A stretch of 55,035 nt of DNA from Alphaproteobacteria bacterium. GTDB lineage: Bacteria > Pseudomonadota > Alphaproteobacteria > JANQMY01. The first letter of the stretch is position 1; every line of letters begins with the position of its first letter. The translations under genes and the position numbers were made by a program. The stretch spans positions 1 through 55,035 of the forward strand of contig JANQPL010000015.1 of assembly GCA_028289425.1 (NCBI GenBank), in the 5' to 3' direction. The notes under the pieces were generated by a model. That model made no database searches, was not told the DNA's origin, and saw only the letters and a program-made list of their open reading frames with translations. Positions 2,991 through 55,035 of the stretch are shown one piece after another.

Positions 2991-3045
2991 CGGCCTTTTA
3001 CTGCTAAGATGGGCCCCGCCAACATTGCCAAGCAGAAAGGCCCCC

Positions 3046-3714
3046 ATGTCTGCTCGACACCTTCAATTCGCGCTCGCCGCGATCTTCATCGGCCTGGGCG
3101 GCTGGTGCCTGCTGATGCCGCACCTTGTGGAAACCTTAGTATTGAAACCCCAATACCAGCATCTGTCGCCCGCCAGCGCCTTGTGGATCGGCTGTTTCGG
3201 CGCGCAGGCCGTGCTGGTGGGAATCGTGATCGCCACCAGTGAATTTCGCGCCCGCACCTTCCTCTTCTTCGGGCTCGCGGGCTCGCTGCCTTTCTTCGTG
3301 TTCAATTGGTATTTCTATTTCGTGGCCGAGATGTTCACCGCATGGATGCTGCTCGATTTTGTAGGTAATCGAGAGCGGCGTGCGGTGAAATGGAACCATT
3401 CTGCCGAGGTCGTTTTGCGTCAGGATCTAGCTGTCCGGCGCAGGCCATACCGGGCGTACGGTCAAGCCGGACGGCGCCGGTCATGGCGCAAAACGGCCCG
3501 GCCCTTTGGGTTTGCGTCCGGCGGCCGCCCGCTGTGTCGAATGGCTCGAGCGATACCCCACATCACTCTTCGCCCTTCTCCTGGCGGATCGGACCGCCGG
3601 ACCGCAAACAGAATTGATTCTATTTCACCGTACGCCGCTCTAGGCATTCTCGCCTGCGGCCTTGCCGGCTGGCGGTTGCTGTCGCGGCAGGAGGCGGGGG
3701 CAGCCCTTCCCTGA
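3046..3714 (+). CDS. Small membrane protein interrupted in frame by a repeat element
   Basis: An open frame of 222 residues that I read as a normal small membrane protein with a foreign segment inside it. Residues 1-108 (MSARHLQFALAAIFIGLGGW onward) contain about four hydrophobic segments and end with WMLLDFVGN. The next roughly 90 residues are Arg-rich and low in hydrophobicity, and coincide with the repeat element at 3370-3643. After the element the frame resumes as LGILACGLAGWRLLSRQEAG, a plausible last membrane helix and charged tail, and stops at 3714. The uninterrupted protein would be about 130 residues. The family is not recognised. Whether the inserted form still folds is unknown. 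The start at 3046 gives the natural MSARH N-terminus; 3025 is an in-frame alternative. Confidence 0.6.
   Translation: MSARHLQFALAAIFIGLGGWCLLMPHLVETLVLKPQYQHLSPASALWIGCFGAQAVLVGIVIATSEFRARTFLFFGLAGSLPFFVFNWYFYFVAEMFTAWMLLDFVGNRERRAVKWNHSAEVVLRQDLAVRRRPYRAYGQAGRRRSWRKTARPFGFASGGRPLCRMARAIPHITLRPSPGGSDRRTANRIDSISPYAALGILACGLAGWRLLSRQEAGAALP
3370..3643. repeat. R1-family inverted-repeat element inserted inside a gene
   Basis: About 274 bp flanked by imperfect terminal inverted repeats: the left end reads GAGAGCGGCGTGCGGTGAAA and the reverse complement of the right end reads CTAGAGCGGCGTACGGTGAA, with similarity continuing to about 37 bp. The interior is GC-rich and self-complementary in parts. 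It resembles the element at the contig edges in end sequence, size, and interior blocks such as GCGCAGGCCATA and TACGGTCAAG. No transposase is encoded, so it is a non-autonomous, MITE-like or palindromic repeat. It keeps one reading frame open across its full length in the orientation of the host gene. Confidence 0.8.
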
Positions 3715-5835: not shown

Positions 5836-5870
5836 CTAGAGCGCTTCATCGTCATATTGAATCGTTCTAG
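5836..5870. repeat. Solo 35-bp end of R1-type repeat
   Basis: The 35 bp begin CTAGAGCGCTTCATCG and end TTGAATCGTTCTAG. They match the first and last parts of the 35-bp terminal repeat at the contig edge (CTAGAGC at one end, GATTGAATCGTTCT at the other). The unit starts and ends with CTAG. It overlaps the last three bases of the NTF2-like gene at 5867, whose stop TAG is the repeat's CTAG. Just upstream (5782) a degenerate TATAGAGCGG may be another fragment. Confidence 0.6.
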
Positions 5871-6268
5871 TTTTCGAACACTGCGGAAGTGTCCCCAAAC
5901 AACCGGATGGAGGTCACGAGCCCTTCCTGGTTCTTATCGGTAAAAGCGGCAGCATGCACGGTGACCTTTTTGCCGTCATGACGTTCGTAATGGTTTAAGG
6001 CTTCAAGAACGAATGCCGTATCGGACCCATAGATGTTCGTCAGATCGTGCTCAATGTTCTTGAAACTCTGCCAGAACCCACCAAGCATTTGGACGACGGC
6101 GTTCTTTCCCTCCACCGCTGGAGCATTGCCGAACCGGATTGAAACATCCTCGGCCAAAAACCCTGCGAAGGTTTCGATATCCTTGGCATCAAGCGCGTTC
6201 AGATAACTCAGATAGGCGTCATAAGCATCCGCGCTGAGCTGGTTGATACGGAGGTTTGAGGTGATCAT
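5867..6268 (-). CDS. Nuclear transport factor 2 (NTF2/SnoaL)-like protein
   Basis: A 133-residue protein with an NTF2-like pattern: an N-terminal helix (DAYDAYLSYLNALDAKDIE), GFLAEDVSIRFGN, GKNAVVQMLGGFWQSF and terminal beta strands (VTVHAAAFTDKNQEG, VTSIRLFGD). The length is normal for the fold. The start at 6268 (MITSNLR) has GAGGGA ten bases upstream. The frame ends ...TSAVFEN and the stop codon TAG lies within the solo repeat 5836-5870, so the native C-terminus may have been a few residues longer. NTF2-like proteins include ketosteroid isomerases, polyketide cyclases and non-catalytic binding proteins; no catalytic residues can be assigned here. Confidence 0.75.
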   Translation of the reverse strand: MITSNLRINQLSADAYDAYLSYLNALDAKDIETFAGFLAEDVSIRFGNAPAVEGKNAVVQMLGGFWQSFKNIEHDLTNIYGSDTAFVLEALNHYERHDGKKVTVHAAAFTDKNQEGLVTSIRLFGDTSAVFEN

Positions 6269-6444
6269 CTTGTGGTCCCTCGGTTGCGTGCCACGTGGTT
6301 GCGCGTGTTCCAACCCTAACGAATCACCGTCTCAACCTCCAATCGATTTTTCCAGCGGGCGATATCGAATGGATCAGCATCAGGCCCAACCAAGTTGTTA
6401 GGCCCGCCGCAATGACCCGCCTTGGAAGCCGCGCCTGGCCTTCC

Positions 6445-9035: not shown

Positions 9036-11039
9036 TTATTTGCCAAGCCCGTCGATGAACCCTTCGATCTCGGTGCTGAGTTTCGACGCTTGTTCCGACA
9101 ATTCCGTCGCAGACTGAAGCATCTCGGTTGATGCCGCCCCTGACTGGGTCGCCGCCTCGGTCACCCCGGCAATATTGCTGGACACTTCGCGGGTTCCCGA
9201 CGAGGCTTCTTGGGCATTGCGCGAAATCTCCTGTGTGGCCGCACTCTGCTCTTCCACGGCCGATGCGATCGCCGTTGAATTCTCGTCGATCTTCGTGATG
9301 GTTTCGCCGATGCCGCCAATCGCGTTAACCGCCTCTTTGGTGGCGGTCTGCATGCCGCCGATTTGTTCGCCGATTTCTTTCGTGGCTTTGGCGGTTTGGT
9401 CGGCCAGGTTTTTGACCTCCGAGGCCACAACGGCAAACCCCTTGCCCGCATCGCCGGCGCGCGCCGCTTCGATGGTGGCGTTGAGGGCGAGCAGTTTGGT
9501 CTGGCTGGCGATATCGTCGATCAAGCCGACGACTTCGCCGATGGCTTCGGCTGCTTCGGCCAAGCTCTTGATGCCGTCATTGGTGCGGTCTGCCTCTTGA
9601 ACGGCCGACCGGGCGATTTGGGCCGATTGAGTGACCTGGCGCCCGATTTCCTGGGTTGAGCTTGCGAGCTCTTCCGCGGCCGACGCCACGGCCTGAACGT
9701 TGGCGGAGGCCTGTTCCGCTGCGGTGGAAACGGCAGTTGCTTGGCCGCTGGTTTGCTCTGCGGATGTGGACAGGGATTCCGCGGTCGCCTTCAGCTCTTC
9801 GGACGCCGACGACACAACGCCGACCACTTCCTTCACCCGGTCTGCGACCCGGATCTGTTCGGTAACAACGCTCCAGGTGAGCAGCGGGCCGATATAGGTC
9901 CCGGAACTGTCGCGAATGGCCGCCACATTGAGTTCCAGCGTTTCCTCGCCCAGCTTGATCATGGTGCGGTGAGGCAGGTTGGACGGGTCTGCCAGCATCT
10001 TGCGCTGATGGGACGGATTCTTGTGGAAGATGTCGATGGACTGGCCCACAAGCTCGTCCGCCCGGCAGGGCAACAAATGCTCTAGCTGACGCAACGTATC
10101 GATACTCGTCCTGTTGGCGAATGTGATCTTGAAGTCTTCCAGATCGCACATCATGGCGTTGATGGGCATGTTCTGCACCATCTCCATGAGACGCGCATTG
10201 TCGTCGTCTGCCTTTACCTTGTCGGTGACGATGCTCCATGTAAGCATTGGGCCCAGATAATTGCCCTCCCGGTCGCGAATGGCCGAGACATTCAGATCAA
10301 GTATTTCGTCGCCGATTTTGATGTTCGCCTGGTGGGGGAGGTTCGACGGATCCGCCAGCAACCCCCGCTGGTAAGATGGGGTCTTGTGGAAGATATCGAT
10401 CGATTGACCGACAAGCTGGTCCGCCTTAATCGGCAACAGGTGCTCAAGCGTTTTCAGCGTGTTGATGCTGGTGTTGTTAGCGAATGTGATGTCGAACGTT
10501 TCCGGATCGCAAGTCATCACGTTGACCGGCATGTTCTGCACCATCTCCATCAGGCGCGCTGCTTCTTGATCGGCGCGCACCGACTCTGTGACGATGTTCC
10601 ACGTCACCATGGCGGCGATGTATGTGCCGGTGGAGTCGCGCACCGGTGAGATGAGCAGATCCAGGATTTCATCGCCCAGCGTGATCCGGGCGTCATGGGG
10701 CAAGTTGCGGTCATCCGCCAGGATCTTGCGCTGATGCGCGGGGTTTTTGTGGAAGATGTCGATCGATTGCCCGATCAGATCGTCCGCCTTGACCGGCAGT
10801 AAATGTTCGATGCCGCGCAGCGTCCGCAATGTAGAGGCATTCGCATAGTTGATTTTGAAATCCGTCAAATCACACGTGATGATGTTGATGGGCATGTCGT
10901 CGAACATGCGTTCCAGCGACGCAATTTTGTCTTTCAGTTTGTCAACTGAGATTTCTTCTGTGCCGTGACCTTTTTTTTGATCGACACCCATTTCTTCGAT
11001 CGGCGTTTCTAGCGTTTCGCTTTCCAGCGCATTCAACAT
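9036..11039 (-). CDS. Soluble methyl-accepting chemotaxis protein with three PAS domains
   Basis: A 667-residue chemoreceptor with no membrane segment. Three consecutive PAS domains (about 46-150, 167-271, 288-391) are clear internal duplications with a period of about 121 residues. Each carries the near-identical block GQSIDIFHK and LPH about 20 residues later, and the linkers repeat [12 protein letters not shown] signalling domain follows (about 400-660) with the hairpin tip [20 protein letters not shown] and the conserved [16 protein letters not shown]. It should sit in the cytoplasm in arrays with CheA/CheW and sense an internal or diffusible cue such as redox, gas or light through PAS cofactors; the ligand is unknown. 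It lies upstream of DUF454-cheB-cheR on the same strand. Confidence 0.95.
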
Positions 11040-24714: not shown

Positions 24715-25165
24715 CCACCTTCTTTCAAGTCGCCTGATTTACCGGCAGCCTTGAGATCAATTCATTTGGACAACGATACTCCGAACGGTACCAGGAATCA
24801 CGGATTGCCGCTCCTTTTTCAAGAATGGATGCTTTTTTGGCACCGTTCCGGTTTTAAGGCTAATCGAACGCAGCCGGTAAGTCTTCCGCGCCGTCGCAAT
24901 TTTCCGTGACAATGAACAACCAGCACCCTCGACAGGGATGCGCCGGCAAACAGAAGCGCGGGCACGACCGCAAACTTTCAAGTCATTCTCAATTGCGAAC
25001 TGTATGATTTCAGAGCGCCTTGGGTTTTAGTTGCTGTTGGCTTGACACTATCCAGCATTGGTTGAGTAAAGGCGCGCCGCGGTTGGCCGCGCGGCCCGAC
25101 CGCAAACAAGGTGAGTCTATTTCACCGTACAACGTTCTAACCGGCGGAAGGTCCCTGAAATTCAG
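24715..25165. other. 450-bp intergenic region with partial R1 repeat
   Basis: No convincing gene. A frame of about 74 codons at 24757-24981 on the minus strand has an atypical composition and no ribosome binding site. The right part carries a partial R1 repeat (25098-25141). The region between 24720 and 25020 is moderately AT-rich and would hold the MarR promoter. Confidence 0.4.
25098..25141. repeat. Partial R1-family repeat end
   Basis: The segment from GACCGCAAACAAGGTGAG to TTTCACCGTACAACGTTCTA matches the right end of the element at 3370-3643 (GACCGCAAACAGAATTGA to TTTCACCGTACGCCGCTCTA) with about ten differences over 44 bases. A matching left end is not obvious, so it is a truncated or degenerate copy. 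It lies 25 bp beyond the 3' end of the deazaflavin-type reductase gene. Confidence 0.6.
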
Positions 25166-36789: not shown

Positions 36790-36813
36790 CTAGAGCACGT
36801 CTGACCTAGAGAT
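36790..36813. repeat. Partial R1 repeat end next to P450 stop
   Basis: CTAGAGCACGTCTGACCTAG matches the first 20 bases of the terminal repeat at the contig edge (CTAGAGCAAATCTGACCTAG) with two differences. The similarity stops after it. It ends a few bases before the P450 stop codon at 36819. Confidence 0.6.
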
Positions 36814-41219: not shown

Positions 41220-41364
41220 CCGGATGAACCCCATGCGCGCGTTGTTTGATTGACCTTCTCCTCCCCGCTCCCCCGGCCCAACCACCCGAGCGAGGGTACC
41301 CTTGGGGTGGTTGGGCCGGGGGAGCGGGGAGGCGTGGGACAAAAAAACCGGATGAACCCCATGC
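41220..41364. repeat. 17-bp direct repeats flanking a palindrome
   Basis: CCGGATGAACCCCATGC at 41220 and 41348 are identical. Similarity extends outward to about 24 bp with two mismatches. They enclose the long palindrome 41260-41332. Direct repeats at both sides of an inverted repeat look like the footprint of an insertion or of slippage. Confidence 0.7.
41260..41332. repeat. Long palindrome, copy A of GGTGGTTGGG family
   Basis: A perfect 28-bp stem (left arm ends CCCAACCACCC, right arm starts GGGTGGTTGGG and ends GGGGGAGCGGGGAGG) with a 17-base loop containing GAGGGTACCCTT. Members of the same family are at 42503, 52916 and 54739, and a half copy at 45644. Confidence 0.85.
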
Positions 41365-42398: not shown

Positions 42399-42502
42399 GC
42401 TCCGATGCGGTGATCCGTTAACCAGTAAACCGGCGGATCCAAAAGAAGGCCGCCGTTATTGCGCAAACATATGCTTAATGCAAGGCATTGTTTGACGGCC
42501 TA

Positions 42503-42580
42503 GCCGGCCCACTCCCCCGGCCCAACCACCCCAAGGGTACCCTCATCGGGTGGTTGGGCCGGGGGAGTGGGCTGGCCCGG
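42503..42580. repeat. Long palindrome, copy B of GGTGGTTGGG family
   Basis: Left arm GCCCACTCCCCCGGCCCAAC (continuing CACCC) at 42507-42531 pairs with GGGTGGTTGGGCCGGGGGAG (continuing TGGGC) at 42548-42572; the loop contains AAGGGTACCCTC. It fills most of the gap between tRNA-Gly and the prolyl-tRNA editing gene. Confidence 0.85.
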
Positions 42581-52905: not shown

Positions 52906-52915
52906 TCCGACTTGC

Positions 52916-52993
52916 CCGGCCGACCCGCTCCCCCGTCCCAACCACCCGATGAGGATACCCTTGGGGTGGTTGGGACGGGGGAGTGGGCCGGCC
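52916..52993. repeat. Long palindrome, copy C of GGTGGTTGGG family
   Basis: CCCGCTCCCCCGTCCCAACC (continuing ACCC) pairs with GGGTGGTTGGGACGGGGGAG (continuing TGGG); one G-T mismatch. The loop contains GAGGATACCCTT. It stands 11 bp after ftsK and could also act as a transcription stop or mRNA 3'-end stabiliser between ftsK and lolA. Confidence 0.85.
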
Positions 52994-53085
52994 AGTCAAA
53001 TCAACAAGCACCATTCATCCTCAATTCAGCCTCATTTGTCATGATGCTCGCACCCATGCATTGAACGAAGAGCTATGTTTCTTAA

Positions 53086-54724: not shown

Positions 54725-54738
54725 GATGGCATCACCAG

Positions 54739-54894
54739 CCCGCTCCCCCTCCCAACCGCCCGCCAGGGTACCCGCAAGCGTTTCCAGGTGAAGTGGGGGC
54801 CGGTTCACCGTCCGGAAACGCGATAAAGGAACGGTGCGAGTATTTTTCTGAAAAATACTCGCACTCGGTGGTTGGGAAGGGGGAGCGGGCCGGC
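54739..54894. repeat. Expanded palindrome, copy D of GGTGGTTGGG family with nested hairpins
   Basis: The outer arms CCCGCTCCCCCTCCCAACCG and CGGTGGTTGGGAAGGGGGAG (then CGGGC) are like other family members, but the usual 17-base loop is replaced by about 100 bases. These hold GCGTTTCC/GGAAACGC with an inner GGTGAA/TTCACC, and a perfect hairpin TGCGAGTATTTTT / AAAAATACTCGCA. Confidence 0.8.
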
Positions 54895-54936
54895 CAGGCA
54901 ATCAAACAATCAATTTCCAATTGAACGCAAACCGAA

Positions 54937-55035
54937 CTAGAGCAAATCTGACCTAGATTGAATCGTTCTGACGGAGCCATTTTGCGACAGGGCAAGGAAA
55001 GCGTCGCAGGCCATAGTGGGGCTACGGTCAAGACG
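54937..55035. repeat. Left part of R1 element at contig end
   Basis: Starts with the terminal repeat CTAGAGCAAATCTGACCTAG (54937 onward, 35 bp) that is the reverse complement of 199-233, and continues into 62 bases identical to the window start. The element is cut by the contig end. Confidence 0.8.

Follow-up and report, generated by a model that had tools for sequence, protein, structure and literature searches.

The gene at positions 3046-3714 of the window, by which we mean the whole 55,035-nt stretch of DNA analysed, very probably carries a MITE, IS630-like by its features, that landed on the TA of a leucine codon and left a readable chimera, in a family for which stop codons are the usual harmless site. 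In the mechanism that we propose, a non-autonomous MITE would have inserted at TA (target Y|TA|R) within the Leu codon C-TA of a membrane-protein gene, duplicating the TA and adding 270 nt. Read in its present orientation and phase, the element gives ERR...AAL with no stop, and the gene would now encode the old protein plus an Arg-rich stretch of 90 residues, probably unfolded, which divides the last helix, with the hydrophobic tail of the element (SPYAAL) partly rebuilding the split helix. Stop codons would be the commonest harmless landing place because the ends of the element read TAG and the target includes TAA and TAG, the stop being restored by the element itself. The data show directly the insertion with its exact empty site in the protein, the frame, the family, the target consensus, the covarying fold and the stop-codon pattern; the mobilising enzyme, the translation of the chimera and any functional effect are what we infer.

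Insertion into a small membrane-protein gene

The window is the complete contig 11 of its own genome (G000, 5.4 Mb), whose placement among the Alphaproteobacteria follows from its relatives. The sister genome G001 is the sole other genome of the same order in the set searched. The features of the locus are as follows.

3046-3714, plus strand: host gene, a small four-helix membrane protein with an in-frame insert; no Pfam family above cut-off
3371-3642, plus strand: full palindromic element of subfamily A, including its TA-derived ends (GA left, TA right)
3371-3398, plus strand: left terminal inverted repeat, outer stem
3615-3642, minus strand: right terminal inverted repeat, outer stem
3403-3502, plus strand: first inner hairpin of the conserved fold, with limits taken over from columns 33-137 of the alignment
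3510-3609, plus strand: second inner hairpin of the conserved fold, with limits taken over from columns 171-271 of the alignment

A sequence-only reading of this DNA had described a gene whose frame stays open through an element bounded by terminal inverted repeats, and both its coordinates and the open frame are correct: the ORF spans 3025-3714, with the ATG at 3046 as the start backed by orthologues. Residues 1-108 of the host protein have matches in four other genomes (385 searched, G000 among them) and in 11 named loci from Roseibacterium, Jannaschia, Pacificimonas, Erythrobacter and relatives. The alignment with orthologues that the earlier reading had called for finds the insert absent from all 11 fetched orthologues, a count of the named loci from which the four genome-search matches are excluded, their C-termini lying on the other strand. 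In these orthologues DFxGN runs directly into the last helix, which closes with GWR; they contain no Arg-rich segment, and their frames continue past the site at which the element begins in the window, so that neither outcome named by the earlier reading as a refutation is seen.

The nearest orthologue, from Pacificimonas, is 65% identical and shares LGILACG after the junction, FAGN|LGILACG corresponding to FVGN-[90 aa]-LGILACG in the window. The extra segment lies exactly between N108 and L198 (numbered from the ATG at 3046), with a placement that is ambiguous by one Leu codon, earlier or later being equally possible. Without the element the gene would have AAT-C(TA)-GGC, or N-L-G, at this point, in agreement with the conserved protein. 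Since 11 of 11 relatives show the empty state, the insertion is established, and its exact empty site is known at the protein level. The remainder of the window gene retains the invariant residues of the family, including GWR after the insert.

Fold of the insert and its effect on the last helix

With its TA-like ends the element measures 272 nt (274 in the earlier reading), of which 3373-3642 is the net insertion of 270 nt, or 90 codons. Taken together with the duplicated TA, the 270 added nucleotides are palindromic over almost their whole length, and the left end of this copy is GA instead of TA. The terminal inverted repeats (3372-3398 and 3615-3641) are 27 nt long and 89% complementary. 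The element strand folds at -167.5 kcal/mol, compared with -113.8 +/- 5.1 for 200 shuffles (z -10.6). A search of Rfam 15 returned a best score of 20.7 bits against a gathering threshold of 41.2 (E 0.14), and hence no described RNA family.

Of the 90 inserted residues, 20 are Arg. The earlier reading had put the insert in front of the last membrane helix. This is wrong; the insert follows N108, falls midway through the fourth hydrophobic segment and splits the last helix, which in the orthologues spans the junction (LWMLLDFAGNLGILACGIA, hydrophobicity peak 1.66). In the window this peak is replaced by two weaker ones, 1.21 and 1.34, the second of which starts within the element and is made in part from its tail. 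In an AlphaFold model of the chimera the insert has pLDDT values mostly in the 40s and a C-terminal helix is kept at 196-216.

The split helix and the low pLDDT of the insert leave room for a dead gene, and we regard it as a serious possibility, somewhat short of probable, that the locus is a pseudogene in waiting: a dispensable gene whose last helix has been split and whose frame is still open only because little time has passed since the insertion and the frame of the element is open by chance. Helix 4 is indeed cut mid-way, one open frame is expected from composition, and the window copy stands 15 substitutions from the consensus, like the intergenic copies L098 (13) and L124 (14); the host gene also has no match in G001. 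Against this, the gene is unbroken outside the insert and keeps its invariant residues, and a second, perhaps a third, independent insertion likewise keeps the frame of its host, as described below.

Copies, subfamilies and distribution

Matches to the element were found at 22 places in G000 and at 31 in G001; several are fragments of a single copy, and many lie at contig ends. G001 has 10% contamination by a tool's figure, and some of its copies may stem from another organism. The nine near-full copies of subfamily A have a mean column identity of 92% in alignment. Full copies with two ends measure 257-275 nt in subfamily A and 268-312 nt in the other subfamilies, and shorter copies of 40-60 nt are internal-deletion forms. 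Subfamilies B and C (G000 and G001) and D (G002) have the TAGAGC ends and the core in common with A. At 272 nt the element is too short for a transposase gene, and its copies are multiple and dispersed. Two single ends, L116 and L157, were discarded, as they resemble parts of genes. Three derivatives of 40-54 nt (L121 96-149, L129 2028-2068 and L146 1220-1259) consist of nearly nothing except the ends and still lie at TA sites, which suggests that the ends alone are enough for movement or survival.

Beyond these genomes, a profile of the translated element matched 12 of 385 genomes of the class. Eleven of the matches were inspected and revealed elements in six further genomes (G246, G227, G060, G208, G184 and G054), with inverted ends that are perfect or nearly so and lengths mostly of about 266-275 nt, two being ~180 nt; in one copy at a contig end (L245) the second arm is absent. 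A search of 289 genomes with a strict subfamily B end pattern gave nothing and missed the known G000 copies too, being too strict to bear on spread.

The earlier reading had the element sharing its ends with repeats at four other places in the window. Such places are real but mixed in kind, and to those listed here is added an isolated B-like end near 36791.

1-232, unstranded: related element of subfamily B, truncated where the contig starts
54938-55035, unstranded: related element of subfamily B, cut by the contig end
5837-5869, unstranded: short copy of subfamily C, 33 nt
25094-25139, plus strand: right-end remnant of a subfamily A copy

The end of the 33-nt copy is the TAG stop (5867-5869) of a minus-strand SnoaL-like gene (5867-6313). 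The last 62 nt of the window (54974-55035) are identical to its positions 1-62; because both ends belong to a subfamily B element, the identity marks an assembly break in a mobile repeat and is not by itself proof of a circular replicon.

Other repeats are also present in the window. A further palindromic repeat, GC-rich and unrelated to the first (CCCCCGGCCCAACCACCC...GGGTGGTTGGGCCGGGGG), lies at 41264-41348, 42498-42580, 52909-53002 and 54725-54903, one case consisting of two arms ~100 nt apart. At 9859-10884 there are three 300-nt direct repeats with an exact spacing of 363 nt and 64-71% identity, probably repeated protein domains. Ends reading TAGAGCGTTTCCAGG and TAGAGCGCGATCAGG were considered as family members and rejected, as they belong to other repeats, some with palindromes of 40-41 nt.

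Conserved fold and possible exchange of ends

The Y-shaped fold covaries across the family. In an alignment of 18 hand-chosen copies from nine genomes of the class, a selection from the known copies, compensatory changes are found in 65 of 92 pairs and 93.5% of cells are paired. The covariation score is 0.558, compared with 0.159 for shuffled and 0.076-0.115 for slid alignments; the fold was derived from the same alignment that was scored, which favours it, and the margin is large nonetheless.

Between lineages the outer stem changes almost totally in sequence and keeps its complementarity, which looks as though one arm had been copied from the other or the ends had been swapped, and not as though compensatory changes had accumulated singly. 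One copy, L135, has GTATGAG ends on an otherwise A-type element. It is observed that L135 (2119-2393), L103 and L104 (ends of G000 contigs C2 and C17) combine an A-type core with a wholly different end block, GTATGAGATG; where both ends are seen (L135) the block is complementary at the two, as if the ends had been replaced together.

Target site and stop codons

Most copies have TA, or a variant one step from it, at both ends. Among 52 copies with both flanks, 44 have the target Y|TA|R and 21 have C|TA|G; this count and those of frames and stop codons below include four truncated copies (L100, L149, L152 and L155), whose far-side base does not represent a true site. Copies with flanking sequence at a single side of the contig were treated separately, outside the 52.

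Flanking frames were scored as coding-like if they had at least 60 codons and a codon score above 0.15 under a model trained on 22 ORFs of the window. In G000, G001 and G002, 25 of 30 such frames enter the element in the phase of its terminal TAG; of the rest, 4 use the second phase and 1 the third. The TAG-phase share has P 2e-8 against a one-third expectation, a null that ignores selection against broken genes. In the other genomes, taking the best frame per side, the TAG phase accounts for 6 of 8, the second for none and the third for 2. Pooled, 31 of 38 coding frames entering the element do so in the terminal-TAG phase. The original codon was read from the base beyond the element, in two-sided copies only. 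The empty site rebuilt in this way for the 31 TAG-phase cases is TAA or TAG in 27 and TAY in 4, the truncated L152 being one of these four 'Tyr' cases. Copy L135, which interrupts a membrane gene and has both ends changed (CA and TC), was scored as a stop-codon case though its target is unclear. Most elements that touch a gene thus occupy its stop codon, which they rebuild. The pdxJ gene of G000 is full-length by Pfam and ends at the TAG of an element, and four elements (L114, L128, L031 and L249) close both of their convergent neighbours. A search for an empty orthologue of a stop-codon site gave no usable relative for the genes at L128 or L118.

This preference bears on the suggestion, which we consider possible though unlikely, that the hairpin is retained at gene ends because it acts there, between convergent genes, to terminate transcription or to stabilise mRNA 3' ends, transposition being only its origin. 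A stop codon is supplied to at least one neighbour by 19 of 47 elements, compared with 119 of the 708 harmless Y-TA-R sites that this DNA contains, or ~17% (P about 1e-4, with crude gene calls and copies treated as independent). The copies that serve two convergent neighbours and the covariation of all stems would fit a role at gene ends as well. However, that expectation comes from a simple gene caller, the choice of target alone could explain the excess of stop codons, and copying from arm to arm during transposition could give the covariation.

In-frame copies and the phase rule

Under the insertion reading, the few copies within genes follow from phase and orientation. In the second phase (an N-TA codon) and forward orientation, the element is read through. 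A second complete in-frame insertion is found in parE of G001, ...IVIARIL-[90 aa]-GHQDPAGSL, a gene with parD upstream and a Pfam ParE match over residues 4-90. An uninterrupted relative in G000 reads ...VVISRILGRQDPDLSL, and its end matches the displaced tail GHQDPAGSL. The parE and the membrane-protein gene of the window are unrelated hosts. In a third, one-sided case, an SRPBCC gene of G001 (L125), the coding frame runs into the element after ~35 residues of the domain and is then open as far as the contig end, the far side lying beyond it. The reverse orientation in the same phase meets a stop after ERRxVK (L119 and L151), TAY insertions and L135 truncate the host gene, and a subfamily D copy (L045) gives conflicting frames. 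Long open frames around the matches in G246, G227 and G060 were considered as fusions and rejected, there being no support for a gene in frame outside the element.

The host frame is read through in 2 of the 52 two-sided copies, or 3 of 52 with the ambiguous L045. In-frame fusion is a minority outcome, and the main habit of the family is not gene invasion. The earlier expectation of a non-rickettsial, alphaproteobacterial family with a gene-invading property therefore stands for carriage in frame (the window gene, parE and the one-sided SRPBCC gene) and fails as a statement about the family's habit; asked whether other copies lie in frame in genes, the 52 copies answer mostly with stop-codon contacts. 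The outcome can be put as a rule based on target phase and orientation: a TAR stop gives a restored stop, a Leu codon entered forward gives a fusion, and other phases give a truncation.

It has been proposed for RPEs (Rickettsia palindromic elements) that a tolerated peptide spreads the family in genes, and the open frame here could be a selected coding property of the same kind. Of the 9 near-full A copies, 8 keep this frame open, and most length changes in it are multiples of three. With every copy counted, synonymous changes number 38 against 25.8 expected (P 0.003). With repeated events merged they number 25 against 18.7 (P 0.06), and the -1 frame does equally well (0.08), so a selected frame was rejected as unproven. 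The P of the excess is 0.048 without L135 and 0.022 without the two in-gene copies, and because leaving copies out shifts P in this way the figure is not taken as evidence. Shuffles of the same composition have a mean of 1.2 open frames of 6, so an open 90-codon frame is expected by chance from the GC-rich composition. Related subfamilies contain stops in this frame and have lengths that are not multiples of three, and only 2 or 3 of 52 copies use it; a selected frame is improbable.

Candidate mobilising enzyme

Transposases of PF13358 were searched for in the genomes that carry the family; none was found in G000 or in five of the seven others. G001 has four matches, one of them in a 1054-bp IS630-family element (L165/L221, C304 2-1055) whose ends, TAGAGCGTTTCATG... 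and TAGAGCATTTTAG...TTGAATCGTT, are close to those of subfamilies B and C. In this G001 element the DDE part is in another frame than the N-terminal part, which by eye is helix-turn-helix-like. G227 has an IS630-family element of 1054 bp with TAGAGC ends (L258 1399-2452, C42), and G246 has the right end of a TAGAGC IS630 type. The subterminal bases of the IS630 elements agree with those of the local elements only partly. IS630 prefers CTAG targets, a preference that the C|TA|G and Y|TA|R sites of the present family share, and RUP and Correia elements have been assigned to IS630. From these ends, the family is most likely mobilised in trans by an IS630-type transposase acting via TAGAGC, an assignment that is plausible rather than proven.

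Comparison with known systems

In-frame palindromic insertions have hitherto been viewed as a near-rickettsial speciality, and clean empty and filled pairs are now available from another alphaproteobacterial order. A 2024 review considers the same route of protein evolution conceivable outside Rickettsia, in its passage on the subject (PMC10969869). The class-wide covarying fold allows persistence by transposition alone to be tested against a benefit of the hairpin at gene ends. We tentatively entertain, with more doubt than confidence, the wider picture of a class-wide, stop-codon-seeking family of selfish palindromes that rebuilds stops in both orientations, maintains a Y-shaped fold by swapping whole complementary arms, occasionally adds 90 residues to a protein and may double as a gene-end element. 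Our literature search, which covered open-licence papers, found no description of the present family.

The family has the features of a MITE, namely a 27-nt terminal inverted repeat, TA at both ends in most copies, no transposase gene and dispersed copies. In-frame MITE fusions are already known. Correia/NEMIS and RUP elements, as outlined in the relevant parts of PMC2229807, have TA at their ends, terminal inverted repeats and no transposase of their own, with some in-frame fusions. These three features are common to both groups; the present family differs in its Y-shaped fold, the arms of which covary wholesale across orders, and in TAG ends that rebuild stop codons. The Coxiella QMITE1 and QMITE2 are long palindromic MITEs that overlap ORFs, some in frame at 3' ends, and according to the part of PMC5896051 that describes them (a comparison by description, not by sequence) they differ from our family in size and in target duplications.

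Two alphaproteobacterial systems are also comparable. The CIR of Caulobacter and relatives is likewise a palindrome with TA ends; in the account of PMC2229807, as far as its section on CIR goes, it is not intragenic, has stops in all frames and has no end-to-end stem. The Br-REP1 and Br-REP2 palindromes of Bradyrhizobium lie in 3' regions, also between convergent genes, in the portion of PMC5082802 concerned with them. They are ~20 to 40 nt long with an unrelated consensus, and the present element of about 270 nt is far from an extragenic REP palindrome of 20-40 nt.

The RPEs resemble our family in being palindromic, in forming stem-loops, in falling into several subfamilies and in lying in frame in alphaproteobacterial protein genes, which they leave open. 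Their length is 105-146 bp, and of the RPEs reported first about half are in genes, according to the relevant parts of PMC2229807 and PMC10969869. Here the length is about 270 nt (compared by description, not by sequence), the target is Y-TA-R, and 2-3 of 52 copies are in frame in genes, most contacts being with stop codons. The earlier view that the insert matches RPE behaviour holds for the in-frame insertion at the window locus and fails for size and for gene invasion as a habit. Where it sits in the window gene the element acts in an RPE-like manner, yet its family is a separate one, spread across the class, and is better filed as a TA-targeting MITE.
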